DNA of 21,513 nt from a virus. Of the stretch, positions 2 through 18,516 are shown piece after piece. Numbering within the stretch: position 1 is the first letter of the stretch; every line of letters starts with the position of its first letter. The stretch lies in the IMG/VR virus record IMGVR_UViG_3300047359_001240, positions 1-21,513 of that record. The stretch is one strand, 5' to 3'. Position numbers and translations under genes: made by a program. The notes beneath the pieces were generated by a model. That model did no database searches. It saw only the letters and a list, made by a program, of their open reading frames with translations, and was not told the DNA's origin.

Positions 2-2848
2 TCTACTGATATCCAAGACGGAAGTTTAGTTGAAGAAGCACCGGTTCCAGGAAACAACTTTGCATTTATGTATAGAAATGATACACAAGGTCCTGGTAGT
101 AGTAACACAGGATTTTTTGCACACTTCCGTCAAGGTAGATTAGAAAGTGGACAATTTAATGTAGCACAGCCTACACCAAATTCAACAGTGTCAATAGACA
201 CTCAAAACATAAATGATTCAGATGTATGGTTATTTGGACTAGATGGTAATAACAATGAATCTGATCTATGGACTAAACTTGATGCTGTAGAAGGTAACAA
301 TGTAATCTACAATAGCATTAATAAAAAAATAAGAAATATTTACAGTGTACTAACAAGAGTTGATGACAGAATTAATTTAGTTTTCTCAGATGGTGTATTT
401 GGTAATTTACCAAAAGGAAACTTTAAAGCATATTATAGAACAAGCGAAAATAGAAACATGGTTATTACACCAGGTGCTATAAACAATATTGCTATTAATT
501 TACGTTACCTAAGTAAAAAAGGTAGAGTACAAACACTTACCCTTACAATGGGTTTACAAACAACTGTATCAAATAGTTCAAGAAGCGAAAGCAATCAAAG
601 TATTAAACAAAACGCTCCGGCAACATACTATACTCAAAACAGAATGGTTACAGGCGAAGATTATAATGTTGCACCGTTAGGAGTTAGCCAAGAAATTGTA
701 AAAGTAAAAAGTGTAAACAGAACATCAAGTGGTATTTCAAGATACTTTGACTTGATCGATTCAACTGGAAAATATAGTAATACTAACTTATATGGTAACG
801 ATGGTGTTCTGTATAAAGAGTATGTAACAAATAAATCTAGTTTTAATTTTACTACACAAACAGATATTGAAGGCATCATTATAAACAATATTGAGCCTAT
901 TCTAGCAGATCAAAAAGTTAAACATTATTATCTAGATAAGTTTCCAAAAATTAATACATTTGATTTAAACGTATTTTGGAATGTTGTAAGTGAAGACACA
1001 AATACATTTACAGGAAATTTCCAATCAACAGACGGAACTGGATATAATGTTGGCACATTTACAACAAACAGTTTAAAATATATCGAAGCAGGTACGGCAG
1101 TTAAATTCCAAGCACCTGAAGGCTTCCACTTTATGCAAGATGGTTCGCTTATGGCAGGCGCTGCAGATCATCCAGGAAGTTCAATATACAAGTGGACAAA
1201 GGTTGTAGCGGTTGCAGGCAACGGGCTAACAGTAGGGTTGTCAGATGCACAAGGTGCTATTGCATTAGCAGACAAAATACCAAGCCTATGTAGACTTATA
1301 CAAATTCGTCCTAAACTAGCAAGTAGTCTTATAGATGATGTAAAAGTAGAAATTATTGATCAAACTTTTGCATACAATGACTTTGGTTTACGTTATGATG
1401 ATGTTAACAGAGTTTGGAGATTAATTAAAGCAAGTGACCTTGATAAGAGAAGTAATTTTAGTACAGGTTTTGCAGGCAATGTAAGTAACGGAAATCTTGA
1501 TGCAAGTTGGTTGTTGTTATTTGAAACAAACGGCGAAACATACAAAGTAACTTACAGAGGTTTAAGATACGTATTTGAAAGTGATAGAGAAATTAAATTC
1601 TACTACGACAGTGGTGATAAAATTTATGATTCACAAACTGGTAAAACAATTAAAGACAAATTAAGTATTTTAAGTATTAATACACAGCCTGACAGCACAT
1701 CACCATTTACAGATAATTTTGATTTTGATATCTTAGAGTCTTATAGAGATAAAGAAGGGTACGTAGATACTAAAAAGATAGAAATAACTTTTGCTGATAA
1801 AGATGCAGATGGTATTATTGACGACCCTGAACTATTTTTACATATTGTTGATGAAGCTACAGCACCATTAACAAAACTTATTATACACGAAAAATATTTT
1901 ACAGAAGCAGGTGTTGAAGATTTTAGATATATTGATGCTTCTAATATACAAATTTTAGAATCGCAAACAGCAATACAACCGTTAAGCACATATACAAATG
2001 GACAATTATTTTACTTTAGAGATGCAGACGTATTTAAAAAGTTAAATGCAACAACACTTGAATTAGAAACTAACAGTGACTACAAAGCGTTTGTTGGTAG
2101 AGACAAGTTAAAATTCCATTATGTGCATGTTGCAGATACTAACAATAGAATAGATCCAAGTGCAAGTAATATGATTGATACATATATGCTTACAAAAACA
2201 TATGATAGAAATTATAGACTTTATTTAGATGGACAACTTACACAAAAACCGTTACCACCAAGTTCGGATGAATTGTTTAGGTCCTACGGTGCTGAGCTCA
2301 ATAAGATAAAATCTATTAGTGACGAAGTTGTTTACCATCCTGTGAAATACAAAGAATTATTTGGTAGTGCTGCAAAGTCAGACTTGCAAGCAACATTTAA
2401 ATTAGTAAAAAATCCAGGTGTTGTACTAAACGATAATGATATTAAAACAAGATGTATTGAAGCAATTAACCAATATTTTGCTTTAGAAAATTGGGACTTT
2501 GGAGATACTTTTTACTTCCAAGAATTAGCAACTTATATTATGAACAGGATTGCTCCTGACTTAGTGAGTGTAGTAATTGTTCCAAATCAAATTACACAAG
2601 GGTTTGGAAGTTTGTTTGAAATAAGAAGCGAAGTTGATGAAATTTTTATTAATAGTGCAACTGTTGCAAATATTGAAATAATAGATCAAATTACAGCAAC
2701 TAGATTAAACGCATCAGGTAACGTTGTTACTTCAAGCGAAACAACAAATACTGGTATAACAAGCTCTGCTTCGTTTACTAGTTCAAACAGTTCAAACAGC
2801 AATAGCTCAAACAACAGCGGATCAAATAGTGGAGGAAGTTACTACTAA
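2..2848 (+). CDS. Baseplate wedge protein, gp6-like (baseplate J family), 5'-partial
   Basis: Reading frame 2 is open from the first complete codon to the TAA at 2846-2848, giving 948 visible residues; the true start lies upstream. The ATG at 68 is rejected as the start because protein-like sequence continues before it. Residues 123-225 look like the baseplate-J core: LVFSDGVFGNLPKGNF, then NAPATYYTQNRMVTGEDY, the 'AP..Y..QNR.VT..DY' signature of gp6/gpJ-type proteins. Residues about 778-906 resemble the J-family C-terminal domain (IKTRCIEAINQYFALENWDF, later IAPDLVSVVIVP). Residues 599-610 (DKDADGIIDDPE) match an EF-hand loop. The last ~35 residues are Ser/Asn/Gly-rich. In T4, gp6 dimers form the inner wedge ring of the baseplate; T4 gp6 is about 660 residues, so this one is markedly longer. 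It overlaps the next gene by one base. The family call is fairly secure; one-to-one orthology with T4 gp6 is inference. Confidence 0.8.
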   Translation, partial: STDIQDGSLVEEAPVPGNNFAFMYRNDTQGPGSSNTGFFAHFRQGRLESGQFNVAQPTPNSTVSIDTQNINDSDVWLFGLDGNNNESDLWTKLDAVEGNNVIYNSINKKIRNIYSVLTRVDDRINLVFSDGVFGNLPKGNFKAYYRTSENRNMVITPGAINNIAINLRYLSKKGRVQTLTLTMGLQTTVSNSSRSESNQSIKQNAPATYYTQNRMVTGEDYNVAPLGVSQEIVKVKSVNRTSSGISRYFDLIDSTGKYSNTNLYGNDGVLYKEYVTNKSSFNFTTQTDIEGIIINNIEPILADQKVKHYYLDKFPKINTFDLNVFWNVVSEDTNTFTGNFQSTDGTGYNVGTFTTNSLKYIEAGTAVKFQAPEGFHFMQDGSLMAGAADHPGSSIYKWTKVVAVAGNGLTVGLSDAQGAIALADKIPSLCRLIQIRPKLASSLIDDVKVEIIDQTFAYNDFGLRYDDVNRVWRLIKASDLDKRSNFSTGFAGNVSNGNLDASWLLLFETNGETYKVTYRGLRYVFESDREIKFYYDSGDKIYDSQTGKTIKDKLSILSINTQPDSTSPFTDNFDFDILESYRDKEGYVDTKKIEITFADKDADGIIDDPELFLHIVDEATAPLTKLIIHEKYFTEAGVEDFRYIDASNIQILESQTAIQPLSTYTNGQLFYFRDADVFKKLNATTLELETNSDYKAFVGRDKLKFHYVHVADTNNRIDPSASNMIDTYMLTKTYDRNYRLYLDGQLTQKPLPPSSDELFRSYGAELNKIKSISDEVVYHPVKYKELFGSAAKSDLQATFKLVKNPGVVLNDNDIKTRCIEAINQYFALENWDFGDTFYFQELATYIMNRIAPDLVSVVIVPNQITQGFGSLFEIRSEVDEIFINSATVANIEIIDQITATRLNASGNVVTSSETTNTGITSSASFTSSNSSNSNSSNNSGSNSGGSYY
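1796..1831 (+). other. EF-hand-like Ca2+-binding loop within the gp6-like protein
   Basis: The twelve residues DKDADGIIDDPE (599-610 of the visible protein) have acidic residues at loop positions 1, 3, 5, 9 and 12, Gly at 6 and Ile at 8, which fits the DxDxDGxIxxxE EF-hand pattern. No canonical flanking helix pair is obvious, so a standalone calcium loop, as in dockerin-like or thrombospondin-type repeats, is more likely than a paired EF-hand. Calcium binding is inferred, not shown. Confidence 0.55.
2735..2845 (+). repeat. Ser/Asn-rich low-complexity tail of the gp6-like protein
   Basis: The last ~35 codons before the stop encode almost only Ser, Asn, Thr and Gly. At DNA level the 9-mer AGTTCAAAC occurs twice in direct tandem at 2780-2797, followed by degenerate copies (AGCTCAAAC, GGATCAAAT) up to about 2830. 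The tract looks like a flexible linker or disordered tail, and it is a plausible spot for slippage-driven length variation. The Shine-Dalgarno site of the next gene is embedded in its 3' end. Confidence 0.7.
2831..2838 (+). promoter_or_regulatory. Strong ribosome binding site for the giant gene, with TAATG overlap
   Basis: GGAGGAAG lies inside the final codons of the upstream gene, 9 to 12 bases before the ATG at 2848 depending on which part pairs. The upstream stop (2846-2848) and this start share one base, TAATG, an arrangement typical of translational coupling. This fixes the start choice of the giant gene. Confidence 0.75.
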
Positions 2849-5800
2849 TGTCTTACGATAACGATCAGACAGACGCACCTTTGCCAGCAGGCGGAAAAGG
2901 CGATAGAAAGAGTGTAGATTTACTTCCTAAGTATTTTAGAACACAAGCAAATAAGAAAATACTTTCGAGTACAATAGACCAACTTGTACAACCTGGCACA
3001 GCAGAAAAAATAAACGGTTACATGGGCCGCAAAAATGCAAAAGCATTTAAGGCAGGTGACACGTATATTGCTGACGTTACACAACAAAGACAAGATAGAC
3101 AGTTAGAACCTGCTACTGTATCTGTAGACGATTTAGGCAATGTAAACTTTTTTGCAGATTACGCCGATTATATTAACCAAGTTAAAAACTTTTCAGGTAA
3201 CAACGAAGATCAAAGCAGATTAAACAGTCAAGAATATTATGCATGGAATCCAAATGTAGACTGGGACAAGTTTACAAATTTCCGTGAATATTATTGGTTA
3301 CCAAACGGTCCACAAACTGTTTCAGTATTTGGAAAAACTTTAGAAGAAGTAAGCACATATACAGTTACTACAGAGGACCAAGGTGATAATGTAGTATACA
3401 AATTTTCTCCTCCGGGGTTTGAACCAAATCCTGCACTTACTTTATATAGAGGACAAACATATACATTTGAAATAGACACACCAGGACATCCGTTTTCATT
3501 CTCAACTGATAGACGTTTTGCAGACGCACCGTTTACACTTGAAAAACAAGATGACGGTAGTTATAAAGTTATATCAGGAAGTGCAGACAATGTGTCAAGC
3601 CTTTATGTACAAGGACTTACAGCAATAGATTTAGAGGGTAATGAAATTGATCCTGTAAATGTTGAAAAAGGTAGAATTACTTTTACTGTACCATTTGAAG
3701 CACCAGAGCAATTATATTACACAAGTGGTAGTGACATTAACACAAGTGGCTATATTAAAGTTTTTGATATTATTGAAAACACACAAATTGATGTAAGCGA
3801 TATCATCGGTAAGAAAAACTACACAAGTTCAAACAAAGTACAATTTACTAATGGACTTAAAGTAAAATTTGCTGGTAAAGTAACTCCGGAAATATATGCT
3901 AACGATGAGTGGTATGTTGAAGGTGTTGGTACTGATATTAGATTAGTTAAAGAAAGTGATTTAGTTATACCTGCAAGTTACGTAGGTGACAAATTAGTTC
4001 CATTTGATAGCGAAGGTTTTGACAGATTGCCGTTTGGTAATGCTAGTGCGTTTGCAGGAACAAAAGATTATGTTGTTATTAACAGATCAAGTGTTGACAG
4101 AAATGCTTGGACACGTTACAATAAATGGTTCCACAAAGATGTAATTGAAAAGTCTGCAGAATACAACAACGAAGTAGCAAGCATTGATCAAAGTGGCAGA
4201 GCATCAAGGCCAATTATTGAATTTAACGCAGGACTAAAATTATTTAATTTTGGTACTCAAGCAAAAGACGATGTAGACTTAATTGATTACAAAACTACTG
4301 ATGCATTTAGTACAGTAGAAGGCGGCACAGGATACAATGTAGACAATACAAATCTTGCAGACGGTATGCGTGTTATCTTTAATGCTGATACTGATAGAAA
4401 TGTAAGAGGTAAAATTTACAAAGTTAACTTTATCTTAATTGACAATATTAGACAAATTAGTTTAGTAGAAGAAACTGATGCTACAGCACAAGTAAATGAA
4501 ACAGTATTAATTAAAGGTGGCGACACATATAAAGGTAGACTGTTTTACTTTGATGGCACTAATTGGAAAGAGTCACAAAGAAAGATACAAGTAAACCAGC
4601 AACCATTATTTGATGTTTTTGACGAAAGCGATGATAGTTTTGGTACTTACAATGCAAGCACATTTAGTGGTACAGAATTATTTGCATATGCAAAAGGCAC
4701 AGGTACAAATGATGCTGAATTAGGATTTCCATTATCATATAGAGCTATTGAAAACTTTGGCGATATACAATTTAAATTTCCATTAGTAAGTGACTCATTT
4801 GTTTATGAAGAAAATAATAGTAATATTACTGTAAACGTTGAAACTGGTTATGTAAGAAAGTATACTGACCTAACATCATACGTAAGTGAAAACGGTTGGA
4901 TCAAAGCAAACAAGCCAAGTTCACAAGCAATAGTAAGACAGTATGTAGCAGATACTACTGTAAATGATTTTGCTGTAGATGTATTTGACCGTAGCGGTGA
5001 CTTAAACGACCTAGTTGTTAAAGTTTATGTAAACAATACTTTTAAGAAAGAATCAACACATTACGATATTAACAGAATAAATGGTGTTGCTTATGTAACA
5101 TTTAAAACTGATTTAGAAACAGATGATATTGTATTATTAAGATGCTTTAGTAAAGCAACAAAAACAGACAACGGTTATTACGAATTAGCATATAACTTAG
5201 AACGTAATCCTATGAATGAAAACATAGGAGATTTTACTATTGGTGAAGTTACAGATCATGTAAGCACAATAATTGAAAACACTTTTGATTATAACGGCAA
5301 TAGATTTCCAGGCGTTAGTAATTTAAGAGATATTGGTAACCTAAGTCAATTTGGTACACGTTTTGTAAAACATACGGGACCTATTGCACTTGCAAGTTAT
5401 CATCTTACAGACAAAAATGCAAATATTATAAAAGCACTAAAGTATGCTAGATTAGAATACGCAAAATACAAAAGATTATTTTTGCAAGTAGCAGATACTT
5501 TAGGGTACGATGGTCCAATTAAAGATCATGTAGATAAAATTATTGAAGAAATAAACAGTCAAAAAACTGACGGAATGCCGTTTTATTTCTCAGACATGAT
5601 ACCACATGGTGCGTCTAAGCGTACATTACATATTGTAAGAGCAAGTGATGGCGTGTTTTATCCGCTTACTAAAACATTTAGTTTATCAAATTTAAGTGAA
5701 AGAGGAGTGTTAGTATATCTTAATGATGTAGCTCTATGTCACGGTACAGATTACACATTTACAGCAGAAGGATTTGTAAAAGTATCAGCAACACTTGCTG

Positions 5801-8800
5801 TTGATGACGAACTAGAAATTTACGAGTATGATACAACTGACGGTTGTTTTGTTCCTACTACACCAACTAAGTTAGGATTGTATCCTGCTTATAAGCCTGA
5901 ACTGTATTTAGACACAACGCAAGAAACACCGCGTAACGTAATTCAAGGACATGACGGAAGTATTACTGTTGCGTATGGCGATTATCGTGATAATCTAATA
6001 TTAGATTTTGAAAGAAGAATTTATAATAATCTAAAGCAAGCCTATAACACAGATGTTTTTGATGTACATGAATTTGCAGGCGGCAACTATAGAGATACAG
6101 GGTTTAGCAGGCAAGACGTTGATAGTGCAATGGTAAGTGATTTTGTACAATGGTCAATAATTGCAGGCGATCCAAATTATACAGCAAATACTTTTTGGAA
6201 AGACACGGATACATTTAGATACAACTATAAAAATATGTCATCTCCAACAGGTAAACTTTTACCAGGATTTTGGAGAGGTGTATACAAAGATGCATACGAC
6301 ACTGATCGTCCTCATACTCATCCTTGGGAAATGCTTGGCTTTACTATTAAGCCTTCATGGTGGGAAGCAGAATATGGTCCAGCACCGTATACTAGAAATA
6401 ATTTTGTACTTTGGGAAGATCTTGAAAAAGGCCTAATTAAAGAGCCAGGTAAACCAGCAAAAGTTGATAACAGATATAAGCGTCCTGGATTAACAAATCA
6501 TATTCCTACAGACGAAAATGGAAATTTATTAAGTCCGTTAGATAGTAACTATGCACAAAACTTTGTTGCTGTAAGAACAAGAGATTCATATGCATTTGGA
6601 GATCATACTCCTACTGAAAGTGCGTGGAGAAAAAGTAGTGAATATCCATTTGCACTAATTACAAGTTGGATATTAAATCAACCAGCAAAAGTAATGGGTA
6701 CCGGTTTTGACTTATCAAGAATGCTAAGAAATAAAACAGGCAATCTTGTTTACAGTCCATCTAATACAATTATTAGATTAAAAGATTTAGTATTTCCAAA
6801 TACGTATACAGACAATCAACGTGTTATTACAAGTGGTCTTGTTAACTTTGTATACAACTACATAGTTAGTGATATAAACACTAGTTATAATGAGTACCAA
6901 GCAGAATTAAAAACGTTAAAGAATCAACTAGCACTTAAAGTTGGCGGCTTTACTGATAAAAGTAAATTTAAATTAATACTAGATAGCAGAACACCTTTAA
7001 ATGAAGGCAATGTATTTGTACCAGAAGAAAACTATAAATTATTTTTAAACACATCTGTACCTATAGAAATTGCAAATTACAGCGGTGTTGTAATTCAGAA
7101 AAATACAAATGGTTATGTTGTAAAAGGATACGATCAGGCTTCAGCTGCATTTAACTATTATGAACCTATACAAGCATCATCAGATCCTGTAATAAACATA
7201 GGCGGCATTTCAGAGTCATTTGTAAATTGGGATAGCGGAAAACAATATGTTAAAGGACAAAATGTTCGATATAATAATTTTTATTATAGAGTAAATTCAA
7301 GCCATGTTAGTGGTCCAAATTTTGACGATACTAAAATGTCTAAGTTAGCAGAGCTTCCACTTGTAGGCGGTAGATCAAATGTACTTAGAAGAAAGTTTAC
7401 AAATCGTGTTAACACTATACCTTATGGAACATTGCTTACAAGTACACAAGAAGTTGTTGACTTTTTATTAGGATATGAAGCATACTTAAAAGCACAAGGT
7501 TTTAAGTTTGAATATTATAACAAAGATATAAGTGTTGTTGAAGATTGGACATTTAGTGTAAAAGAATTTATGTTCTGGACTACACAAAATTGGGCGGCTG
7601 GTAGTGTACTAACACTAAGTCCGGGCGCACAACAGTTTACATTCAACAGACAATATATGGTTGTAGATAATATCTTTGATAATTTTTATGATTATAGTTT
7701 GTTAAAAGCAGACGGTCAAAAATTACAAAGATCGTTTAGTAGCATTGCTAGAGATACTGAAAATGATTTTGGTCTAAGTGTTAGAAATACAGCAGATGGT
7801 ATTTACAGCGTTAAACTACCATTGGTACAAAGAGAACATGTAATATTATTAGATAATAAAACTGTGTTCGGCGATGTTATATATGACCAAGAAGCAGGTT
7901 ACAGACAAGAAAGAATTAAAGTTACTGGATATAGAAGTGATAACTGGTCCGGTGGACTAAACATACCAGGCTTTATATATGACGAAGCAGAAGTAAGAGA
8001 CTGGCAACAATACAAAGATTATGGTATTGGCAAATTAGTTAAGCATAAAGAATTTTATTACGTTGCATTGGCTAACGTAACTGGAACAGAAGTGTTTATT
8101 GATTCACAATGGGAACGTTTAGAAAATCGTCCACAGGCACAATTAGTTCCTAACTTTGAATATAAAATTAATCAGTTTGCAGACTTTTATGACTTAGATA
8201 CAGACAACTTTGATCTTGAACAACAAAAACATGCACAGCATTTAATTGGATATCAAAAACGTAAGTACTTAGAAAACATTATAAATGACGATGTAAGTCA
8301 GTATAAGTTTTATCAAGGAATGTTACAAGATAAAGGTACAAAAAATAGTTTAGTAAAACTGTTTGATGCTCTTGCAAGTGCTGATAAAGAAAGTTTAGAA
8401 TTCTACGAAGAATGGGCAATTAGAGTTGGCCAGTACGGTGCTACTGATAATTTTGACGATGTTGAATTTTTAATTGACGAAAAGCAAATTAAAACTAATC
8501 CACAGCCAATAGAGCTTGTAACTAATTTACCTGCTAATGATACCGACACTATTTATAAACTCACCCCAGCAGACGTATATAAAAGACCTCAAAACTACGA
8601 TCATAAACCGTTTCCGACTGTTGTAGATTACAAACAATTTACTAAAGACGCCGGATTTGTGTTTGATGCAGATGTTGCATATAGGATTAATGATAAGGCA
8701 GATATACTTACAGCTAATATTAATGTAATTGGTGCTAAGGATTATGTTTGGGTAACAGGCGACGAACAGCCATGGGACGTTTTACAACATGTAACTACTG

Positions 8801-11800
8801 ATATTAGAGTAACTAATATAACAGGGTTTGACGAAGGTGCTGACGCATTTGTTGGTGTAGACAATCCAGGCGGCACAATCGAATTTGACAGATCACACTC
8901 TTTTAAAAGAGGTGATATAATTGGCTTGCAAAATACATCAACACAGAATGATGGTTTTTACACTGTAGAAGTTGTAAAGCCAACTAGTGTAAATGTTCTT
9001 GCTGGTACAAACAATAGCATCGAAGACCTAAGTGATATTAATGGTTACGTAAGTATTTTACGATCAGTAAATTTTGACACTATAAAAGAAGCAAACATTG
9101 TATTAGAAGAAAAAATAGCTGAAGACCAAAAAGTTTGGATTAATGGATCAACTAAAAATGACTGGGTAGTTGCTATACAAGATAATGTATACAATGATAA
9201 GTCGCATTATAATAATCCTAGCGATTACGACATTACATCTGCATATGAGTTTGGCTCTGCTATATCATCTAATAAAGCAAACACTAGATTAGCACTTGGC
9301 GATCATAGTGCAAATAATTTAAATGGTAATGTTTACACTTATCAAAGAGGATCAAATTTAAGAGATTTATTATTTGAAGACACGTTAACCTTAGACACTG
9401 ATGCATATCCAATGGCAGACGGACATCGCTTTGGAGCAGACATTGACATAAGTGAAGACGGCAAATATTTAATTATTGGGTCAAGTACAGCAAGTGAAGT
9501 TGCTTCTAATTACCAAAGCGATTATAGTAAAACTATAGCGTATAATGAAAACGATATTGTTAAGTATAGCGAAAACTATTGGAAGGCTGTAAGAACAATT
9601 ACTCCTGAAAGTAACAGTATTGCATTTAGTACTTTTGACAGTTATGCAAACTTTGAAAGATCAAGTGACAGTAGTTTACTAACACTAATTTTACAAGGTA
9701 GTCCATACTTACCAAACACACAAACAGATCACTTGTTAATTGCTGCACCTTTTGATCAATATAGAGGTTCTAAGCCACAAGACAAACTAGTTCTTAAGTG
9801 GAACAATTATACAAACTTTAATAGAAACATAGGTAGTGCAAGTCCTGTAGAAGTATTCCCAGAAGGTATTAACGCACAGAATTCAGCAGCATCATATACA
9901 GAGCCAACATCAACATTTATAAATGGCGAACATGTTATTGTAGAAAAGATTGATGCTGTATTATTAGTAGAACCGTTTACTGATCCTCCAGTAGATGGCG
10001 ACATAATAAATGCAGTTGGCGGCTCAGCAACAGTTTACAAAGCATTCCAAAGAGACTTTAAACTTGTACTTTACATAAAAGATACAAATGGAGTTTTTGG
10101 ACCAACTGGAACTATTACAAATAGTAACGGAACACCAATTGGCGATTATACACAACCAAACTATAACGGCACAACTGGTGCTGTAGGTGGCTGGTGGTAT
10201 ATTAACACAGGCACAAACTACTTAACATCAGATGAATTTACAGAAACAAAAGATTTTGGCGTACCAGCTTACGGTCTAGTATATCAAGATGTATTAGTTT
10301 ACAATGAAAATACTCAAACATATGCTAGAACTATACCAAACTTTTATGCAAATGGATTAGATGATGTTGCAAGCACTATATTCCCAGATAGAGACGAACC
10401 AGTATTTGTTAGTGTTCTTTCTCATAGAGGTGCGGCATACGTAAATGTTGACGTTGACGGCGTACAAAATATTGTAGACAACAGATGGTTGATGAGAGTT
10501 CCGTCAAACTTAGCTGGAGAAATTACAACCGCAGGTGATCAGTTTAGAGCATATATTAATGATCAAGCAGATTCTCCAGACTTTGATTTGTTAGGTATTG
10601 ACCCTAGTTACATCAACGACAACTTACACACTGTTGTAGATATGTGGGAAGGATATATTGACTTTACATTTACTAAAACACAGGGTGCTGATGTTGATAT
10701 GTTATCAGATCCAGACGTTGACACTGGTGACTTCTTTGAACCTGCTTATGAAGGTAAAGTATTTTCAGATATAAACGGAAATATTATTAACATTAACGGA
10801 GCAGATGGCGACTTTATTAGAGATGAAATTACTGGCGCTAGAGGCCGTGTTGCATATTATATAAGACGTGCTGGAACCCAAGGTAGAGTATATCTTAAAG
10901 ATGTTACAGGAACATTTACTCAAGGTAACAGATTACTATTAGAAACATTAGAAGGACCATCGCAATTACCAAACCAACGTATTATGGGTCCAATTAACAA
11001 AATATCTGTTACAGGAAGTAATACAGGTAAAATTGCTGTTATGCAAAGGGGAACTAACTTTCCTGCACACCCAGAATCATATGGCGGTTTACAGCAGTTT
11101 AGAGATTTAAATGCATTTGCACACATTAATAAAGAATTTTGGGTATACCAAGAAAACTTAACAGAAGCAGGTAAAGAAGCAGAAGCAAGCATACCTAGCA
11201 CAGCAAATAGTGACTGGCGTCTTGTTTATAATTTACCAGTAGACACTAGCGGTTCGCAAGTAAGCAAACCTGTAAATCAAGGTGTATACAGTATCTTTAA
11301 TAGGGTAGGAAACACATGGACCAACAGAGGAACATGGACAATTCCGGGAAGTACTACAAACAGTAATGTTGGTAAGCAAGTTGCTGTAACACAAGACGGC
11401 GAACTATACAGATTTTATGTAGGTTCAAAAGAAAACCTAACAGTTTTAAAACACGGTATAGACAAGTACGGTAAAAAATATAATTATGCATTAGATATTA
11501 ATCCTCATTATAGAGGACCATACTCAGCTGATGCATCATATAAAACAGATGAGATAGTTTTATATAACAATCAATTATATTCAGCACTTACATTTCTAAA
11601 AGGTGTTTTACCCACTGACACACTTAAATGGACAACATTAAATAGTACAGTAAATTATCTTCCATCATTACCAAATGATGTAAACATTTACAATGACCCA
11701 GTGTTTAATGATTTAGGCGAAGGTGTATTAGACTTTACAAAAGAAATAAGTGTAAGCGAAAACGGTCAAGTACTTGCAATAAGTGTAATTACTGATACAA

Positions 11801-14800
11801 GTGTTGACCCTGATAACAAAGTACTTGTTTATAGAATATTAGATGACAGATATGTTTTTGATCAAACTATTGTTGCACCTATATCAAACACTGGTTGGGG
11901 AAGTAGTATAAGCCTTAGCGAAGACGGTGACACTTTAATAGTTGCTGATCCTGAGAGTGATGTACAAGGCTACAACACAGGAAAAGTATATGTCTATGCA
12001 AAAGTAAATGGAGCGTTTGAATTACATCAAACATTATCAGGTACAGGAACACTCAGTGAAAAGTTTGGTACTAAGGTTAGCATTTCACAAGATATTATTG
12101 CTGTAACAAGCGGCAATGGCGACATTATTACTGAAACAATATTTGATAACGGTACTACGTCATTTGATGATACATTTACAACATACCCTGATAAAAGAAT
12201 AGACAGTGGTAGTGTTAGACTATACCAAAAAGTTAAAGACGCATACATACTTGCAGAAGAATTAGATTATGACGGCGATGATAATGTACTAGTTGCAAGT
12301 AGATTTGGCGAACAAGTTTTAATTAATGACAATCACATTTATGTAGGTGTTCCAGCAGATCCAAACTCATATTATGATGAAGATATAAATCCTGGAAGTT
12401 TTGTTGACTATCAAGTTACACAAGATAAAAAACCGTGGACATTATTAAGAACACCAAATGAAGTTGTTGACACACAAAAAATTAAATCAGCATTTTTGTA
12501 CAACGTAAAAACAAATCAATTATCTACATACTTAGATTATATTGATCCTGTACAAGGTAAAATTGCAGGACCGGCAGAACAAGAATTAACATTTAAATCA
12601 AACATTGATTTTGCACGTTACAATGTTACAACATTACCTGACTACTTTAGTGAAACTTCTAATTGGGAAGAACAACATGTTGGCAAACTATGGTGGGATT
12701 TATCTACAGCAAAATTCTTTAATGTATATCAAGAAGATATTACTAACCAGGCAAACAACTGGAGCAAGTTAATACCTAACTACTCGGTTGATATTTATGA
12801 ATGGGTAGAAAGTGATATTGTTCCAGCAGATTGGGATAACCAAGCAGACACAGCCGCAGGCTTTGCAAAAGGTATAAGTGGGTTATCTAAATACGGCAAT
12901 GATGCATACAGCCAAAAATTAGTTTACGATCCTGTATCACAAACATTTAGCGACAAATATTACTTTTGGGTTAAAAATAAAGTAACTGTTCCTGTTCAAG
13001 AAGCAAGAACAATTAGTGCATCTGAAGTTGCAAAATTAATTGCTAATCCAAGAGGACAAGGTTATAGTTTTGTAGCATTATTAAGTAATGATAGATTTGT
13101 TCTTTACAACTGTGAAAGTTTAATTAAAGACAAAGACATTGCTTTACATGTAAGTTACTATACACAAGATACACAAGAACAAAATAGACATTTTGAATAT
13201 AGTCTGTTAACAGAAGGACTAGAAACAAGTGTACCTAAAGCAGACATAGAAAGAAAATGGATTGACAGTTTACTTGGTTACGATTCAAGAGGACGTATTG
13301 TTCCAGATCCTGAGTTAAGTGCAAAAGACAAATATGGTACATTAAATAGTCCAAGACAAAGTTGGTTTGTTAATAGACAAGAAGCATTTAAGCAAGTTGT
13401 TGAAAGAGCAAACTTAGCACTTCAAGAAACTATTATTGTAGATGACTTTAGTTTTAAAACTCTTAACAGTGAAGATGTCCAACCGTTTGTAACTGACAGA
13501 ACATATGATTATAAAATTGATACATTAGATGAATTAAACTTTATTGGTATTAATAAAATTAAAACCGCAACACTACAAGCATCAGTGCATAGTGGTGTAG
13601 TAACTGATATTAGAATTACTGATACTGGTAGAGGTTATAACGATCCTACATACGACAATACTACAAGTGTTGTAAGACACGGACCAAGTTTTGAATTGTT
13701 TGGTAACGGTAGCGGATTAGACTTTAATTTAGAAATTAATAACTTAGGACAAGTTAGCAAAGTAAACATTATTAACGGTGGTTCTGGTTATGATGAAAAT
13801 TTAATAATTGAAGTAAGACCGCTTACAGTATTAGTTGAAAACGATAGTACAGTAAATAACAAATGGGCTATTTACGAATGGAATAAATCATCAAGTCTTT
13901 GGGATAGAGTAAAATCACAAAGTTACGATACAAAAGAATATTGGGATTATGTAGACTGGTATGCAACAGGTTATACACAATTTACAAGAATTGATCATAG
14001 AGTAGATGAAAGTTATCAGTTAGCATCAGCAAATGCTAAGATTGGCCAAATTGTTAAGATTGATAATATAGGTAACGGTGGCTGGTTATTATTAAAACGT
14101 GTTGCAGATACTAATTCTTTAGACTATACAATTGATTATGAAACTATTGGTAGAGAAAACGGTACAATAGAAATTAGTAGTAAAATTTATAATGTAATAG
14201 AAAATACAGTTGGTTATGATTTACTAGGCTACGACAATAGATTCTTTGATACTGAACCAGTAACTGAAGGTAGACAAATATTAACAGCATTAAAGAACGA
14301 TATATTTGTAGATAACTTAGCAATTAAATGGCAAGAATTATTCCTTGCAAGTGTTAGATATGTATTGTCAGAACAACAAAATGTTGACTGGGTATATAAA
14401 ACAAGTTTTGTAAAAGCAAAACATAATGTAGGCGAACTAGAGCAAAAGATAAATTATCAAAATGATAATCTAAGTAGTTATAATGATTACATTAACGAAG
14501 TTAAACCTTATAAGACAAACATACGTGAATATCTAAGTTCTTATGAAAATGTAGACAATACTAATACTCAAACAAGTGATTTTGATGTTCCTCCGTATTA
14601 CGATTATACACAAAACGGAATAAAAACTAAATCTGTAAAAATTAAAGATAACGAGTTGCTTGGAGCAGATGCGTTCTTTGATGAATATCCATACCAGTCA
14701 TGGAAAGAAAATTACGGATATAAAGTTACAGCAATTAATATTTACAATAGCGGAAGCAAATATACATATCCACCAACAGTAACTATTGCAGGCGGTGGCG

Positions 14801-17800
14801 GCACTGGCGCAACAGCAAGAGCATATATTGGTGCAGGCAAAGTAGTTAACATTGAAGTTACTAATCCAGGAAGCGGATATACTAGTGCGCCAACTATAAC
14901 TATTAGCGGATCACAAGCAGATGGTTCTACAACAGCAATAGCATCAGCACAAATTGGTAACAGTGTTGTTAGAAGTCTACAAGTTGGTATTAAGTTTGAC
15001 AGAGTGTCTGGACAATACTTTATTACAACGTTGCCTGAAACAGAAACATTTACAGGTACAGCAATAAACAATAAGTTTGATTTAAAATGGCCTATTAATT
15101 TAAAACGTAATAAAATAAAAGTTACAATTAATGGCACATTATTGTTACGTAGTGAATATGCATTTACTAACATAGATGATAAAACATATACATATGCTAG
15201 ACAAAAAGGTCAAATACAGTTTAGTAACACTCCTGCATTAGGAAGTATTATTGTAGTTGAATACGAAAAAGATCCTGCAATATTAAATGCACAAGATAGA
15301 ATTAATCACTTGTACAATCCTACAACAGGAATGCTTGGTAAAGATTTATCACAACTAATGGTTGGTGTTGACTACGGTGGTGTAGAAGTTAAGAGCTTTG
15401 GCTTTGAAGGTACATCAGGATGGATGACTGACGAATATGGAACAGACACTTGGGACAGTTACGATAACACATTTGAAGATGAAATATTCTTTGCAGATGG
15501 TACAACTGTTGCTATTGAACTTGCTAAACCTTTAGAAGACGGTGTTGAGTATAATGTTTACTTAAAACGCTTTAGTCAAACAAAGGCAATTAGAATTGAT
15601 GATCCTAACTATGGTAATAATCCTACTAATAAATTAGCAATGATGCAAACACTAACAGGTGACGGTGTAACACAAACAATAAACTTAGCAGAAAATGATA
15701 TTGAAGTTTCAGATGGTGATATTGTTACTATTAGAAAAACAACTTCAGATGGTAGTTTTAAACCAGACGGTGATAGTTACGATACAATACTTGAAGGCGG
15801 CGCCCTAACTTATGGTAATGCTGGTGGTATTAACGCAGACGACATTATCTTAGACGGAGATTTATTTGTTACTCCGTTAACAACAGGCGGCCCAGAAGAA
15901 TTAGTTAATGGTCAAGTTATGGACTCTGTTAATATAACAGTTTATGAAAGAAACGGTGAAGGTCAGGGACAAATATATAATCAAAATTACTTAACTGATG
16001 GCACAACTACAACTTATCCACTAGGATTAGCGCCACACGGTAACGATGCTGTAATTGTTAAACTAGGTAATACAATAGTTGATAAAGCACAGTACACATT
16101 AGATTACAAAGCCCTTACAGTAACATTTAATAATGCACCTACAACAGACCAAGTACTAACAATACTTACAGTTGGAATAAACGGAGAAAATATAATTGAT
16201 CTTGGAGTATTGTTTACAGAAGAAGGACAAAGTTCGTATGTAACAAATATTTTATGGAGTGATAGTTATGCAGTTTATCTTAGAAAAGATGGACAAGAGC
16301 CAGACGGACCTGAATTGATTGCTAAGAAAAGTGATACAGGCTTTATTGAATTTGTGTTTAGTCCAGTACCGCCTCCAGAAGGCACAAGACTAGATTATGA
16401 AATTTACTCTAATAATACACAAATTAATTATAGTAAAATACAAAAAGACAATATTATTGCTGACGGCTCAAGTGTTACATATAACTTATCAACTAGTGCA
16501 ATATACGAAACACCTGCAGAGTTCTTTAGCATTGTAGAAGTTAATGGTGCTATTAAAAAGCCAGGCTACTCAAAAGTATTCCATATTACAGATGCAACAC
16601 GAAGAGAATATACTTTAGAAACATTCCAAGTACAAGAGTCAACTCTAAGTCCTGCTGATACTGAAATATATCTTAATGGTAAATTATTAAACCAGCAAGA
16701 TAGTTATGCTGTTAACATTGGTCAAAGTAGTATTACAATAGGAAGTAATATTTTGTCACAAGGTGATATACTAACTGTTTACTTTAGAAATGGTGATTAT
16801 CGTGTTATTGGTAACCAAGTTACATTTACGGATTTACCAGCAGAAGACGATATTATAAATGTTTACACATTTAGTAATCATGATATATTAGATATTAACC
16901 GCATAAGTTATGATGTTATTAATAGAAGTGCATTAACGCCTGGATCAGATAACTTTTCAGCGTACCATCAATTAACAGGTGGTAGAGTATTGTTAAATCA
17001 ACCAGCCAGCGGTGTTGAATATGTTTGGTTATTTAAAAACGGTTCCATGTTATCACCAAGTGTAGATTATAAGTTACAGAGTAACATGAAAATAATTGAG
17101 CTTGTTAACGAACCTGCTGAAAATGATACAATAGATATTATACACTTTACAGCACCAATTAGTACACCAACTATTGCATGGCAACAGTTTAAAGATATTC
17201 TTAATAGAACGCACTATAAACGTGTTGACAATAACGATGGTGTAAAACTAGCACAAGATTTAGCATTTAATGATCTTAGAATTGTTGTTGTTGAAGGAGC
17301 AGATAGATTACCAAGGCCAGATAAGCGTTCTAATAAACCAGGCATTATTTGGATTGGCGGCGAACGTATTGAGTACTTTGCAAAAACAGGCAATGACTTA
17401 AGACAGTTACGTAGAGGCACATTAGGAACAGGTATTGCATCAATACACAGTGCAGGATCTAGAGTTTACGGCGCAGGAGTAGAGAAAAATATTCCATATA
17501 CTGATCAAACTATAGCTTGGACACCAGTTGATGCTGTAACCGAAGGACAAACTGAATTTACACTTGATTTTACACCTAATAGTGTAAATGAGTTTGAAGT
17601 GTTTGCTGCAGGAAAGAGGTTAAATAAGGCTGCTATAGCTACATTTGATCCCGTACTTGCAATTGATTCACCTGAAGGTGATGTAAATACACCAGCAGAG
17701 TTCACTGTAAATGGCAATACATTAACACTAACAAGTCCAATGAAAGCAGATCAAAAGTTAGTTGTTATTAGAAAAGTAGGTAAATTGTGGACAGACCCGG

Positions 17801-17874
17801 GCACTCCATTAAAAGATGCTCAAAACGACATTGGTAGTTTCTTACGTGGAGCAAGAAGTGAATTACCCGAATAA
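2848..17874 (+). CDS. Giant modular virion structural protein, 5008 aa, at the T4 gene 7 position
   Basis: One unbroken frame of 5008 codons, roughly 550 kDa, starts at an ATG with a strong upstream ribosome site. Modules seen in order: conserved N-terminus (LLPKYFRT, then INGYMGRKNAK, ~25-70) and EYYAWNPNVDWDKF (~130); cupredoxin-like domain (197-305); NKWFHKDVIEKS (~425); Trp-rich core ~1080-1205 (YRDTGFSRQDVDS, DTDRPHTHPWEMLGF, KPSWWEAEYGPAPYT); carbohydrate-binding-module-like motifs (1461, 1719, 2232, 2892); YKFYQGMLQDKGTK (~1830); FG-GAP-like blades (2133-2218, ~2840, 2963-3172); VGKLWWDLSTAKFFNVYQ (~3285); GSGY/GRGY repeats (3583-3658, 3960-4039); C-terminal beta repeats (4067-4760); IIWIGGERIEYF...LRQLRRGTLGTG (4833-4863). 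These motifs recall large structural proteins of marine T4-like phages. Its position after a gp6-like gene suggests a wedge role like T4 gp7 (1032 residues), but I see no sequence resemblance to gp7. No signal peptide or membrane segment is evident, and only four cysteines occur. Confidence 0.85.
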   Translation: MSYDNDQTDAPLPAGGKGDRKSVDLLPKYFRTQANKKILSSTIDQLVQPGTAEKINGYMGRKNAKAFKAGDTYIADVTQQRQDRQLEPATVSVDDLGNVNFFADYADYINQVKNFSGNNEDQSRLNSQEYYAWNPNVDWDKFTNFREYYWLPNGPQTVSVFGKTLEEVSTYTVTTEDQGDNVVYKFSPPGFEPNPALTLYRGQTYTFEIDTPGHPFSFSTDRRFADAPFTLEKQDDGSYKVISGSADNVSSLYVQGLTAIDLEGNEIDPVNVEKGRITFTVPFEAPEQLYYTSGSDINTSGYIKVFDIIENTQIDVSDIIGKKNYTSSNKVQFTNGLKVKFAGKVTPEIYANDEWYVEGVGTDIRLVKESDLVIPASYVGDKLVPFDSEGFDRLPFGNASAFAGTKDYVVINRSSVDRNAWTRYNKWFHKDVIEKSAEYNNEVASIDQSGRASRPIIEFNAGLKLFNFGTQAKDDVDLIDYKTTDAFSTVEGGTGYNVDNTNLADGMRVIFNADTDRNVRGKIYKVNFILIDNIRQISLVEETDATAQVNETVLIKGGDTYKGRLFYFDGTNWKESQRKIQVNQQPLFDVFDESDDSFGTYNASTFSGTELFAYAKGTGTNDAELGFPLSYRAIENFGDIQFKFPLVSDSFVYEENNSNITVNVETGYVRKYTDLTSYVSENGWIKANKPSSQAIVRQYVADTTVNDFAVDVFDRSGDLNDLVVKVYVNNTFKKESTHYDINRINGVAYVTFKTDLETDDIVLLRCFSKATKTDNGYYELAYNLERNPMNENIGDFTIGEVTDHVSTIIENTFDYNGNRFPGVSNLRDIGNLSQFGTRFVKHTGPIALASYHLTDKNANIIKALKYARLEYAKYKRLFLQVADTLGYDGPIKDHVDKIIEEINSQKTDGMPFYFSDMIPHGASKRTLHIVRASDGVFYPLTKTFSLSNLSERGVLVYLNDVALCHGTDYTFTAEGFVKVSATLAVDDELEIYEYDTTDGCFVPTTPTKLGLYPAYKPELYLDTTQETPRNVIQGHDGSITVAYGDYRDNLILDFERRIYNNLKQAYNTDVFDVHEFAGGNYRDTGFSRQDVDSAMVSDFVQWSIIAGDPNYTANTFWKDTDTFRYNYKNMSSPTGKLLPGFWRGVYKDAYDTDRPHTHPWEMLGFTIKPSWWEAEYGPAPYTRNNFVLWEDLEKGLIKEPGKPAKVDNRYKRPGLTNHIPTDENGNLLSPLDSNYAQNFVAVRTRDSYAFGDHTPTESAWRKSSEYPFALITSWILNQPAKVMGTGFDLSRMLRNKTGNLVYSPSNTIIRLKDLVFPNTYTDNQRVITSGLVNFVYNYIVSDINTSYNEYQAELKTLKNQLALKVGGFTDKSKFKLILDSRTPLNEGNVFVPEENYKLFLNTSVPIEIANYSGVVIQKNTNGYVVKGYDQASAAFNYYEPIQASSDPVINIGGISESFVNWDSGKQYVKGQNVRYNNFYYRVNSSHVSGPNFDDTKMSKLAELPLVGGRSNVLRRKFTNRVNTIPYGTLLTSTQEVVDFLLGYEAYLKAQGFKFEYYNKDISVVEDWTFSVKEFMFWTTQNWAAGSVLTLSPGAQQFTFNRQYMVVDNIFDNFYDYSLLKADGQKLQRSFSSIARDTENDFGLSVRNTADGIYSVKLPLVQREHVILLDNKTVFGDVIYDQEAGYRQERIKVTGYRSDNWSGGLNIPGFIYDEAEVRDWQQYKDYGIGKLVKHKEFYYVALANVTGTEVFIDSQWERLENRPQAQLVPNFEYKINQFADFYDLDTDNFDLEQQKHAQHLIGYQKRKYLENIINDDVSQYKFYQGMLQDKGTKNSLVKLFDALASADKESLEFYEEWAIRVGQYGATDNFDDVEFLIDEKQIKTNPQPIELVTNLPANDTDTIYKLTPADVYKRPQNYDHKPFPTVVDYKQFTKDAGFVFDADVAYRINDKADILTANINVIGAKDYVWVTGDEQPWDVLQHVTTDIRVTNITGFDEGADAFVGVDNPGGTIEFDRSHSFKRGDIIGLQNTSTQNDGFYTVEVVKPTSVNVLAGTNNSIEDLSDINGYVSILRSVNFDTIKEANIVLEEKIAEDQKVWINGSTKNDWVVAIQDNVYNDKSHYNNPSDYDITSAYEFGSAISSNKANTRLALGDHSANNLNGNVYTYQRGSNLRDLLFEDTLTLDTDAYPMADGHRFGADIDISEDGKYLIIGSSTASEVASNYQSDYSKTIAYNENDIVKYSENYWKAVRTITPESNSIAFSTFDSYANFERSSDSSLLTLILQGSPYLPNTQTDHLLIAAPFDQYRGSKPQDKLVLKWNNYTNFNRNIGSASPVEVFPEGINAQNSAASYTEPTSTFINGEHVIVEKIDAVLLVEPFTDPPVDGDIINAVGGSATVYKAFQRDFKLVLYIKDTNGVFGPTGTITNSNGTPIGDYTQPNYNGTTGAVGGWWYINTGTNYLTSDEFTETKDFGVPAYGLVYQDVLVYNENTQTYARTIPNFYANGLDDVASTIFPDRDEPVFVSVLSHRGAAYVNVDVDGVQNIVDNRWLMRVPSNLAGEITTAGDQFRAYINDQADSPDFDLLGIDPSYINDNLHTVVDMWEGYIDFTFTKTQGADVDMLSDPDVDTGDFFEPAYEGKVFSDINGNIININGADGDFIRDEITGARGRVAYYIRRAGTQGRVYLKDVTGTFTQGNRLLLETLEGPSQLPNQRIMGPINKISVTGSNTGKIAVMQRGTNFPAHPESYGGLQQFRDLNAFAHINKEFWVYQENLTEAGKEAEASIPSTANSDWRLVYNLPVDTSGSQVSKPVNQGVYSIFNRVGNTWTNRGTWTIPGSTTNSNVGKQVAVTQDGELYRFYVGSKENLTVLKHGIDKYGKKYNYALDINPHYRGPYSADASYKTDEIVLYNNQLYSALTFLKGVLPTDTLKWTTLNSTVNYLPSLPNDVNIYNDPVFNDLGEGVLDFTKEISVSENGQVLAISVITDTSVDPDNKVLVYRILDDRYVFDQTIVAPISNTGWGSSISLSEDGDTLIVADPESDVQGYNTGKVYVYAKVNGAFELHQTLSGTGTLSEKFGTKVSISQDIIAVTSGNGDIITETIFDNGTTSFDDTFTTYPDKRIDSGSVRLYQKVKDAYILAEELDYDGDDNVLVASRFGEQVLINDNHIYVGVPADPNSYYDEDINPGSFVDYQVTQDKKPWTLLRTPNEVVDTQKIKSAFLYNVKTNQLSTYLDYIDPVQGKIAGPAEQELTFKSNIDFARYNVTTLPDYFSETSNWEEQHVGKLWWDLSTAKFFNVYQEDITNQANNWSKLIPNYSVDIYEWVESDIVPADWDNQADTAAGFAKGISGLSKYGNDAYSQKLVYDPVSQTFSDKYYFWVKNKVTVPVQEARTISASEVAKLIANPRGQGYSFVALLSNDRFVLYNCESLIKDKDIALHVSYYTQDTQEQNRHFEYSLLTEGLETSVPKADIERKWIDSLLGYDSRGRIVPDPELSAKDKYGTLNSPRQSWFVNRQEAFKQVVERANLALQETIIVDDFSFKTLNSEDVQPFVTDRTYDYKIDTLDELNFIGINKIKTATLQASVHSGVVTDIRITDTGRGYNDPTYDNTTSVVRHGPSFELFGNGSGLDFNLEINNLGQVSKVNIINGGSGYDENLIIEVRPLTVLVENDSTVNNKWAIYEWNKSSSLWDRVKSQSYDTKEYWDYVDWYATGYTQFTRIDHRVDESYQLASANAKIGQIVKIDNIGNGGWLLLKRVADTNSLDYTIDYETIGRENGTIEISSKIYNVIENTVGYDLLGYDNRFFDTEPVTEGRQILTALKNDIFVDNLAIKWQELFLASVRYVLSEQQNVDWVYKTSFVKAKHNVGELEQKINYQNDNLSSYNDYINEVKPYKTNIREYLSSYENVDNTNTQTSDFDVPPYYDYTQNGIKTKSVKIKDNELLGADAFFDEYPYQSWKENYGYKVTAINIYNSGSKYTYPPTVTIAGGGGTGATARAYIGAGKVVNIEVTNPGSGYTSAPTITISGSQADGSTTAIASAQIGNSVVRSLQVGIKFDRVSGQYFITTLPETETFTGTAINNKFDLKWPINLKRNKIKVTINGTLLLRSEYAFTNIDDKTYTYARQKGQIQFSNTPALGSIIVVEYEKDPAILNAQDRINHLYNPTTGMLGKDLSQLMVGVDYGGVEVKSFGFEGTSGWMTDEYGTDTWDSYDNTFEDEIFFADGTTVAIELAKPLEDGVEYNVYLKRFSQTKAIRIDDPNYGNNPTNKLAMMQTLTGDGVTQTINLAENDIEVSDGDIVTIRKTTSDGSFKPDGDSYDTILEGGALTYGNAGGINADDIILDGDLFVTPLTTGGPEELVNGQVMDSVNITVYERNGEGQGQIYNQNYLTDGTTTTYPLGLAPHGNDAVIVKLGNTIVDKAQYTLDYKALTVTFNNAPTTDQVLTILTVGINGENIIDLGVLFTEEGQSSYVTNILWSDSYAVYLRKDGQEPDGPELIAKKSDTGFIEFVFSPVPPPEGTRLDYEIYSNNTQINYSKIQKDNIIADGSSVTYNLSTSAIYETPAEFFSIVEVNGAIKKPGYSKVFHITDATRREYTLETFQVQESTLSPADTEIYLNGKLLNQQDSYAVNIGQSSITIGSNILSQGDILTVYFRNGDYRVIGNQVTFTDLPAEDDIINVYTFSNHDILDINRISYDVINRSALTPGSDNFSAYHQLTGGRVLLNQPASGVEYVWLFKNGSMLSPSVDYKLQSNMKIIELVNEPAENDTIDIIHFTAPISTPTIAWQQFKDILNRTHYKRVDNNDGVKLAQDLAFNDLRIVVVEGADRLPRPDKRSNKPGIIWIGGERIEYFAKTGNDLRQLRRGTLGTGIASIHSAGSRVYGAGVEKNIPYTDQTIAWTPVDAVTEGQTEFTLDFTPNSVNEFEVFAAGKRLNKAAIATFDPVLAIDSPEGDVNTPAEFTVNGNTLTLTSPMKADQKLVVIRKVGKLWTDPGTPLKDAQNDIGSFLRGARSELPE
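3436..3770 (+). other. Cupredoxin-like domain with lost metal ligands (within the giant protein)
   Basis: Residues 197-220 (LTLYRGQTYTFEIDTPGHPF) and 281-305 (VPFEAPEQLYYTSGSDINTS) fit the two ends of a cupredoxin-like fold seen in many marine phage and bacterial proteins, whose second half usually reads LYYxCxxHxxMxG. Aligned without gaps, Cys is Ser293, His is Asp296 and Met is Thr299, while the first His (His214 of GHPF) and the final Gly301 are kept. The fold is inferred; the substitutions are read directly from the codons. It is probably a structural remnant that does not bind copper. Confidence 0.55.
6070..6462 (+). other. Trp-rich conserved core of the giant protein
   Basis: Residues ~1075-1205 are dense in Trp, Tyr, His and Pro: YRDTGFSRQDVDS, then PGFWRGVYKDAYDTDRPHTH, then PWEMLGFTIKPSWWEAEYG, then APYTRNNFVLWEDL. 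I recognise this as the most family-specific part of very large myovirus structural proteins. No catalytic motif is visible. It is a good anchor for finding homologues because it is not low-complexity. Confidence 0.6.
7228..7300 (+). other. Carbohydrate-binding-module-like motif 1 (giant protein)
   Basis: Residues 1461-1482 read WDSGKQYVKGQNVRYNNFYY and onward, the 'W....Y..GD.V.Y.g..Y.a' pattern of CBM5/12-type (ChtBD3) modules. Three further copies of the pattern occur in the same protein, starting at 8002, 9541 and 11521. Sugar binding is inferred from the motif only. Confidence 0.45.
8002..8118 (+). other. Carbohydrate-binding-module-like motif 2 (giant protein)
   Basis: Residues 1719-1757 begin WQQYKDYGIGKLVKHKEFYY and end with a Trp-Glu-Arg-Leu segment, keeping the aromatic spacing of CBM5/12-type modules (W, Y, then G..V.....YY, then a distal W). 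It is followed directly by an alpha-helical stretch (residues ~1790-1880) containing YKFYQGMLQDKGTK. Confidence 0.45.
9244..9501 (+). other. FG-GAP-like beta-propeller blades, first group (giant protein)
   Basis: Residues 2133-2218 contain two units: FGSAISSN...LALGDHSANNLNGNVYTYQR, and FGADIDISEDGKYLIIGSST. Each has the 'FG..v..s.dG..l.vG.....G.vyvy' layout of FG-GAP/integrin-alpha-type propeller blades. The group is cut off from the second group (from residue ~2840) by more than 600 residues of other sequence. Confidence 0.5.
9541..9612 (+). other. Carbohydrate-binding-module-like motif 3 (giant protein)
   Basis: Residues 2232-2255 read YNENDIVKYSENYWKAVRTI and onward, the core 'Y..nDIV.Y...YW.A' pattern. 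It follows the first propeller group by only ~15 residues, so it looks like an insertion after a blade. Confidence 0.5.
11521..11640 (+). other. Carbohydrate-binding-module-like motif 4 (giant protein)
   Basis: Residues 2892-2931 read YSADASYKTDEIVLYNNQLY, with a downstream KWTTL, fitting the same aromatic pattern as motif 3. It lies between a lone blade-like unit near residue 2840 and the second propeller group from residue 2963. Confidence 0.5.
11734..12363 (+). other. FG-GAP-like beta-propeller blades, second group (giant protein)
   Basis: Residues 2963-3172 hold four consecutive blade-like units: ISVSENGQVLAISV...DNKVLVYR; GWGSSISLSEDGDTLIVADP...GKVYVYAK; FGTKVSISQDIIAVTSGNGD, followed by GSVRLYQK; and RFGEQVLINDNHIYVGVPAD. 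The repeat is clear at protein level and absent at nucleotide level, so it is old. Such propellers usually make protein or glycan contacts; the role here is inferred. Confidence 0.6.
13594..14963 (+). repeat. Dispersed glycine-rich GxGY repeats (giant protein)
   Basis: A repeat of the form 'v..i.i.n.GsgY...P.v.i.ggg..GatA.a...G.v..v.v.n.GsGY' appears at residues 3583-3658 (DTGRGYNDPTY, INGGSGYDENLIIEV) and again at 3960-4039 (NSGSKYTYPPTVTIAGGGG, NPGSGYTSAPTITISG). The copies bracket ~300 residues of different, Trp/Tyr-rich sequence. Such repeats are frequent in marine phage tail proteins and are thought to form beta-rich shafts or sandwiches. Confidence 0.6.
15046..17150 (+). repeat. C-terminal run of beta-domain repeats (giant protein)
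   Basis: Residues ~4067-4765 show at least five units of the form 'dG....f.l.......v.V.vNG..l....Y.......i.f...p..gd.i.v.y'. Clear landmarks are IKVTINGTLLLRSEYAF, VIVKLGNTIVDKAQYTL, TEIYLNGKLLNQQDSYAV, and VWLFKNGSMLSPSVDYKL. Divergence between units is high. The layout suggests a string of small Ig-like or jelly-roll domains; a further degenerate unit may sit at ~4885-4990. Confidence 0.55.
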
Positions 17875-17895: not shown

Positions 17896-18516
17896 ATGAC
17901 AAACACAATTAATGAACAAAACGGTGTATTTGTACAGGGGCATATTAAAATAAGTGACCCTAGCAGCGGCGAAGTCTTTGTTAACAAAAAGAACGCCATA
18001 CACTATGAAAATATGAGTATTGCTCTTGCAGAATCTTTAGGTAATGCAGGACAAGGGCCTATTGCTGTAATGAGCTTCGGCAACGGCGGTACAAATATAG
18101 ATACAACAGGAGTAATAACATATCTTACTCCAAACTCAACAGGAACAAACGCAGGTTTGTACAATCAAACGTTTACAAAGATAGTTGACGATAGAAATAC
18201 AGATAATTTAGATCCTACTAGAAACAAGATTGAAACTAGACACGTAAATGGTACAAATTATACTGATATTGTTATTACATGTTTACTAGATTACGGCGAA
18301 CCAAATGGTCAAGATGCATTTGATACAGCATCTGATACAGATAACAGTTTTGTATTTGACGAATTAGGGTTAAGAAGTGCTAGTGCAGACGGTATTATAG
18401 GCAACGGTAGATTATTAACACATGTTATTTTCCACCCTGTACAAAAGTCACTAAACAGATTGATCCAAGTAGACTATACGGTTCGAGTACAAAGCCTTAG
18501 CGGAGGTAACAGCTAA
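17896..18516 (+). CDS. Virion/baseplate-associated protein of unknown function, 206 aa
   Basis: The gene is complete, with AGGAA six bases before its ATG and a stop that overlaps the next start (TAATG). I do not recognise a named family with certainty. The N-terminal part (GHIKISDPSSGEVFVNKKNA, then IHYENMSIALAESL, residues ~15-50) and the C-terminal part (LLTHVIFHPVQKSLNRLIQV, residues ~175-195) read like a conserved myovirus structural protein. There is no signal peptide, membrane helix or catalytic motif, and no cysteine-rich site. It sits between the giant wedge-type protein and the fibre genes, the T4 gene 8/9 neighbourhood. A wedge or fibre-attachment role is therefore plausible, but it is shorter than T4 gp8 (334) and gp9 (288), and I see no resemblance to either. 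Confidence 0.7.
   Translation: MTNTINEQNGVFVQGHIKISDPSSGEVFVNKKNAIHYENMSIALAESLGNAGQGPIAVMSFGNGGTNIDTTGVITYLTPNSTGTNAGLYNQTFTKIVDDRNTDNLDPTRNKIETRHVNGTNYTDIVITCLLDYGEPNGQDAFDTASDTDNSFVFDELGLRSASADGIIGNGRLLTHVIFHPVQKSLNRLIQVDYTVRVQSLSGGNS
18502..18507 (+). promoter_or_regulatory. Strong ribosome binding site of the collar-fibre gene, with TAATG overlap
   Basis: GGAGGT lies eight bases before the ATG at 18516, within the last codons of the upstream gene. The upstream stop and this start share one base, as at 2848, so translation of the two genes is probably coupled. Confidence 0.75.

Follow-up and report, generated by a model that had tools for sequence, protein, structure and literature searches.

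The window analyzed here, a stretch of 21,513 nucleotides of viral DNA, is largely taken up by a single gene for a giant virion protein of the PHROG 10938 family (2848..17874, plus strand), and we consider that this is probably a baseplate protein of T4-superfamily jumbo phages that replaces the wedge proteins gp7 and gp8. The frame codes for 5,008 aa, starts with ATG, ends with TAA and has no internal stops, against a chance expectation of ~366 stops per 5,008 codons at the base composition of the window. It covers 15,027 of the 21,513 bases (69.9%), in agreement with the earlier note on this DNA, which had described one intact 5,008-codon frame over about 70% of the window. A mass of 561.7 kDa and a pI of 4.7 were computed from the sequence, and ~4 cysteines (0.08%) and ~30 methionines (0.6%) were counted among the residues. 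Directly upstream, and on the same strand, lies a homologue of the baseplate wedge protein gp6 (2..2848, with the 5' end outside the window), which matches phrog_10646 (E=6e-211) and phrog_219 (E=3.6e-11), the latter being the T4 gp6 family (T4 gp6 itself matches at E=1e-216). The ATG of the giant overlaps the TAA of this gene, which places it in the gene 7 slot as had been claimed. While gp25 itself is outside the window, the gene order gp25-gp6-giant is found in PA5oct, CBB and Atu_ph07, and the ORF sizes in two further contigs (L015, L024) are compatible with it. In Salicola phage SCTP-2 (L004 2609-11899), the gp6-slot gene before the giant itself encodes 3,096 aa.

The giant gene is real and selected along its whole length. 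Near-identical full-length frames of 5,008-5,011 aa were recovered from the separately assembled contigs L007, L008, L016, L017 and L054, and 44 family ORFs of more than 2,500 aa were closed at both ends in metagenomic viral contigs (median 5,005, maximum 5,550 aa). In homologues at 45-80% identity, the frames stay open over 4,500-5,550 aa. The strong selection supposed to keep the frame open was confirmed by codon comparison with L054, L016 and L014, which gave dN/dS values of 0.04-0.19 for all blocks of 500 codons. In two contigs (L015 23389-25035, L103 18903-21878), the frame is interrupted at one point and the rest of the gene is read in another frame; these breaks look like single frameshifts, possibly sequencing errors, and no clear case of a natural split of the giant gene was identified.

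The window protein is a longer member of a known family already represented in databases: in profile searches, its two halves match PHROG 10938, annotated as "virion structural protein", at E=1.4e-245 and 1.5e-83. Relatives are present in 87 isolate phage records, including RaK2 (ORF070, 3,326 aa), CBB (CBB_236, 3,340 aa), SCTP-2 (gp140, 3,807 aa), PA5oct (gp355, 3,857 aa) and Atu_ph07 (AUZ94962, 4,449 aa), and scans of viral contigs for the giant retrieved 516 and at least 586 stretches. The five isolate giants share the two conserved blocks A and B described below, occupy the same slot after gp6 and are 25-29% identical to the window protein over aa 1-2000. The latter is 560-1,680 aa longer, mainly due to an insert at aa 1970-3200 and a gp9-C-terminal-like module. 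SCTP-2-like relatives were not found in the viral contigs, the bacterial genomes searched for host clues gave no contig with a confirmed relative, and an NCBIfam search with the giant gave nothing relevant. CBB_236, identified by its locus as the CBB homologue of the giant, was detected in CBB virions by mass spectrometry (MS), where 21 unique peptides covered 7.72% of it (PMC5259590, Table 4), and the database record of its PA5oct counterpart gp355 carries an ESI-MS/MS mark. The virion location is thus experimental for these two relatives and, through homology with them, the window protein can be taken as the virion protein that the earlier note had seen in it. In PHROG, the category assigned to the family is "head and packaging".

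Conserved blocks were defined from an alignment of 43 complete copies, and all features given here are on the plus strand. Block A (aa 1-1970; 2848..8757) is delimited by the alignment profile, phrog_10938 matches and invariant residues and is common to RaK2, CBB, PA5oct, SCTP-2 and Atu_ph07. Block B (aa 3200-3990; 12445..14817) is delimited by the alignment and was modeled by AF2 with a pLDDT of 78. Both blocks are present in all aligned relatives. The block B model has no PDB match at E≤0.001 (Foldseek), and in BFVD its top significant matches are to members of the family, among them the Atu_ph07 structural protein. Within block A, a gp9-C-terminal-like module (aa 167-308; 3346..3771) was identified by phrog_677 (E=8e-10) and by hhalign against the C-terminus of S-CAM22 gp9 (E=7e-5); an alignment gap shows it to be largely absent from RaK2, CBB, PA5oct and SCTP-2. 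Further on, a CBM5/12 chitin-binding-type module (aa 1460-1491; 7225..7320; PF02839, 29.5 bits vs. a cut-off of 26.2) recurs in 22 of 25 family members. A second CBM5/12-like fold (~aa 1710-1760; 7975..8127) was recognized by structure only, its coordinates being inferred from the model: local pLDDT is ~88 in the AlphaFold slice aa 1500-2010, and Foldseek relates it to the CBMs of chitin deacetylases over 46 columns (probability 1.0, rmsd 1.8 Å, E=0.04). Near the end of the block, a conserved helical segment with a KGT motif and the invariant residues K1829 and G1830 (aa 1780-1870; 8185..8457) is a candidate gp7/gpI-type core.

The variable insert between the two blocks (aa 1970-3200; 8755..12447), defined by the alignment and a slice profile search, contains an FG-GAP propeller and CBM5/12 modules. 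RaK2, CBB, PA5oct and SCTP-2 lack this insert or have a short version of it, and it occurs in a divergent form in the Atu_ph07 giant; FG-GAP_2 was detected in all 20 members inspected and CBM5/12 in 18 of these 20. The FG-GAP_2 repeat of the window protein lies at aa 3017-3050 (11896..11997; PF14312, E=3.4e-7, 30.8 bits vs. a cut-off of 23). At the end of block B, a GxGYTxxPTxxI module (aa 3953-4042; 14704..14973) matches phrog_460, 701, 708 and 19630 (E=1e-14 to 1e-15); this module also occurs in many proteins of the baseplate, neck and fibres of cyanophages, and hhalign relates it to the P-SSM4 and S-CAM22 giants at E ~1e-9. The remaining C-terminal arm of putative beta-modules (aa 4050-5008; 14995..17871) is assigned through weak matches in relatives, namely DUF2460 in 12 of 24 members (best 1e-5) and T7-tail-fibre-N in seven of 24 (best 1e-7). 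The proposal that wedge, decoration and host-contact functions are merged in one chain is reasonable and in part supported: the CBM5/12, FG-GAP, gp9-C-like and GYTxxPT modules are shown, while their functions, host contact among them, are read from the modules only.

Downstream of the giant, a gene for a 206-aa protein (17896..18516, plus strand; phrog_11259) co-occurs with it: this family is found in 87 isolate records whose host and genus breakdown is the same as that of the giant's 87, and in PA5oct its copy adjoins the giant and is ESI-MS/MS positive. Its product is a likely partner of the giant. Further copies are located at L003 23714-24319 and L002 26142-26738, and in some enterobacterial phages the gene is ~12 kb away from the giant and on the other strand. 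It is followed by a gene for a 692-aa tail-collar-domain protein (18516..20594, plus strand; PF07484, E=1e-12), which has the N-terminal module phrog_15511 (TDxSLxGRNxxxYGExxxxNF...ENFANP...GQxWYDT) in common with the next gene (20603-21513), suggesting a tandem duplication of a tail protein. Giant-family phages carry a gp23-type capsid protein and one relative is encoded on a 330-kb contig (L175), which fits T4-superfamily jumbo phages.

In the explanation that we favor, the giant would be translated directly after gp6, built into the virion, as MS has shown for relatives, and substitute for gp7 and gp8 of the T4 wedge; giant-bearing genomes have no recognizable copy of either. Each baseplate would contain about six chains, a number taken from T4 gp7, which occurs in the wedge as a monomer in six copies (PMC3004832). 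The scaffold that docks on gp6 would be formed by block A and perhaps also by block B, while the insert with its propeller and CBMs and the beta-modules of the C-terminus would extend outwards as an integral periphery, possibly serving to decorate the baseplate, attach fibres and bind surface glycans reversibly. Copy number, gp6 docking and the gp7-type role are what we infer for the giant, as is glycan binding, which is suggested by the module names. Against this explanation, no significant similarity to T4 gp7 was found in sequence or in fold, the AF2 model is poor at the candidate core, and the PHROG category mentioned above is not one of the tail.

T4 gp7, with the 1,032 aa correctly given in the earlier note, likewise follows gp6 and is a single-chain multidomain protein, but it is five times smaller than the window protein and has no significant sequence similarity to it. 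In T4, gp8 comes next after gp7, whereas the lineage of the window has no recognizable gp8. Indeed, neither phrog_964 (gp7) nor PF09215 (gp8) had a match in Atu_ph07, PA5oct, SCTP-2, RaK2, CBB or three long contigs including the 330-kb one, while the controls T4, P-SSM2 and phiM12 match both profiles; divergence could account for these absences. A scan with PF09684 was uninformative for gp7, as this model misses T4 itself. We also built KG[TIS] core profiles of gp7 from T4-type phages, Kyanoviridae and rhizobio/stenophages. True gp7 core groups (T4, cyanophage, rhizobiophage) unite at E=1e-10 to 4e-15 in profile-profile comparisons (hhalign), whereas the giant family reaches E=0.044-0.29 with single core groups and E=0.018 with the pooled profile. 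The claim of a gp7 counterpart thus holds for the position after gp6, while the sequence comparisons do not establish it.

It is nevertheless possible, if somewhat short of probable, that the giant is genuinely homologous to T4 gp7 and P2 gpI and that its helical core was split by a huge insertion, with an N-terminal LLPxYFRT helix at aa 26-45, the KGT helix at aa 1829 and ~1,700 residues between them. Besides the position after gp6, the best local match to the pooled gp7 cores is the KGT segment, in phase on the invariant K1829-G1830, and an equally good score came from three of 150 column shuffles. In-phase hhalign placements on gp7 KG[TIS] motifs have E=0.018-0.08. S-CAM22 and P-SSM4 are organized in this way too, and there a gp7 core can be demonstrated ~700 residues in. 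The E-values remain far from those among genuine gp7 groups, however, and for 13 of the 15 single gp7/gpI sequences the top hit lies elsewhere. With these and reversed controls, the KGT-core comparison is no more than suggestive. PDB profile searches of the giant gave no direct match to gp7, and in the PDB structure search neither slice matched T4 gp7. In the model of aa 1500-2010, which is poor at the KGT core, pLDDT falls below 40 at this segment, perhaps since the N-terminal partner helix is outside the slice.

Giant proteins in the gp7 slot are already annotated in cyanophages, such as gp7 of P-SSM4 (7,312 aa) and P-SSM2 (5,195 aa), with further cases in S-CAM22 (6,273 aa) and S-CAM7 (4,314 aa), and therefore the size of the window protein is not exceptional. 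It is close to the family median as well, and the expectation that it would be among the largest proteins for a phage of this type was not upheld. As with the window giant, those of Kyanoviridae are encoded directly after gp25-gp6, and GYTxxPT modules are found in both. In the Kyanoviridae giants, unlike in the window family, a gp7 core can be demonstrated by hhalign against T4 (E=4.5e-10), and outside the repeat modules no significant similarity between the two was found. In S-CAM22, the gp7 KGT core is in the 6,273-aa protein after gp6 (L097 2469-21290), and it is not obviously there in the 1,375-aa product labelled gp7 (L097 22543-26670). The gp7 core seen in P-SSM2 and P-SSM4 conflicts with a publication according to which gp7 is absent from cyano/pelagimyophages (PMC7029224).

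A giant adhesin or fibre that is encoded in the baseplate operon, is suspended from the rim of the baseplate and takes no part in the scaffold is quite unlikely. CBM5/12, FG-GAP, gp9-C-like and GYT modules do recur in phage fibres, and the module-rich insert is the most variable part of the protein; however, the two most conserved blocks are not those modules, purifying selection is strong throughout, the gene directly follows gp6 in the examined isolates, and no gp7 or gp8 match was found elsewhere in giant-bearing genomes. Finally, an assembly chimera, frame error or read-through artefact, for which nothing but the unusual length would speak and of which the earlier note had named the first two as grounds for refutation, is rejected with near certainty, because dozens of contigs from separate assemblies carry this frame unbroken, homologues of 3,300-4,450 aa exist in isolate genomes and selection is purifying in every block.

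Returning to the giant as a replacement of gp7 and gp8, one may speculate, and we regard it as rather unlikely, that in two lineages of T4-superfamily phages, the RaK2/Atu_ph07-like jumbo phages and the marine cyanophages, the gp7 position has grown into a single chain of 4-7 thousand residues, here with the core split by ~1,700 residues, gp8 lost and one protein replacing several wedge and periphery proteins. This family of giant baseplate-operon proteins is abundant, with more than 500 viral-contig stretches, and little studied. Of its two most conserved blocks, block B has a fairly confident predicted fold without a solved counterpart. For PA5oct and RaK2, this raises the structural question of a contractile baseplate in which one chain seems to replace both gp7 and gp8.
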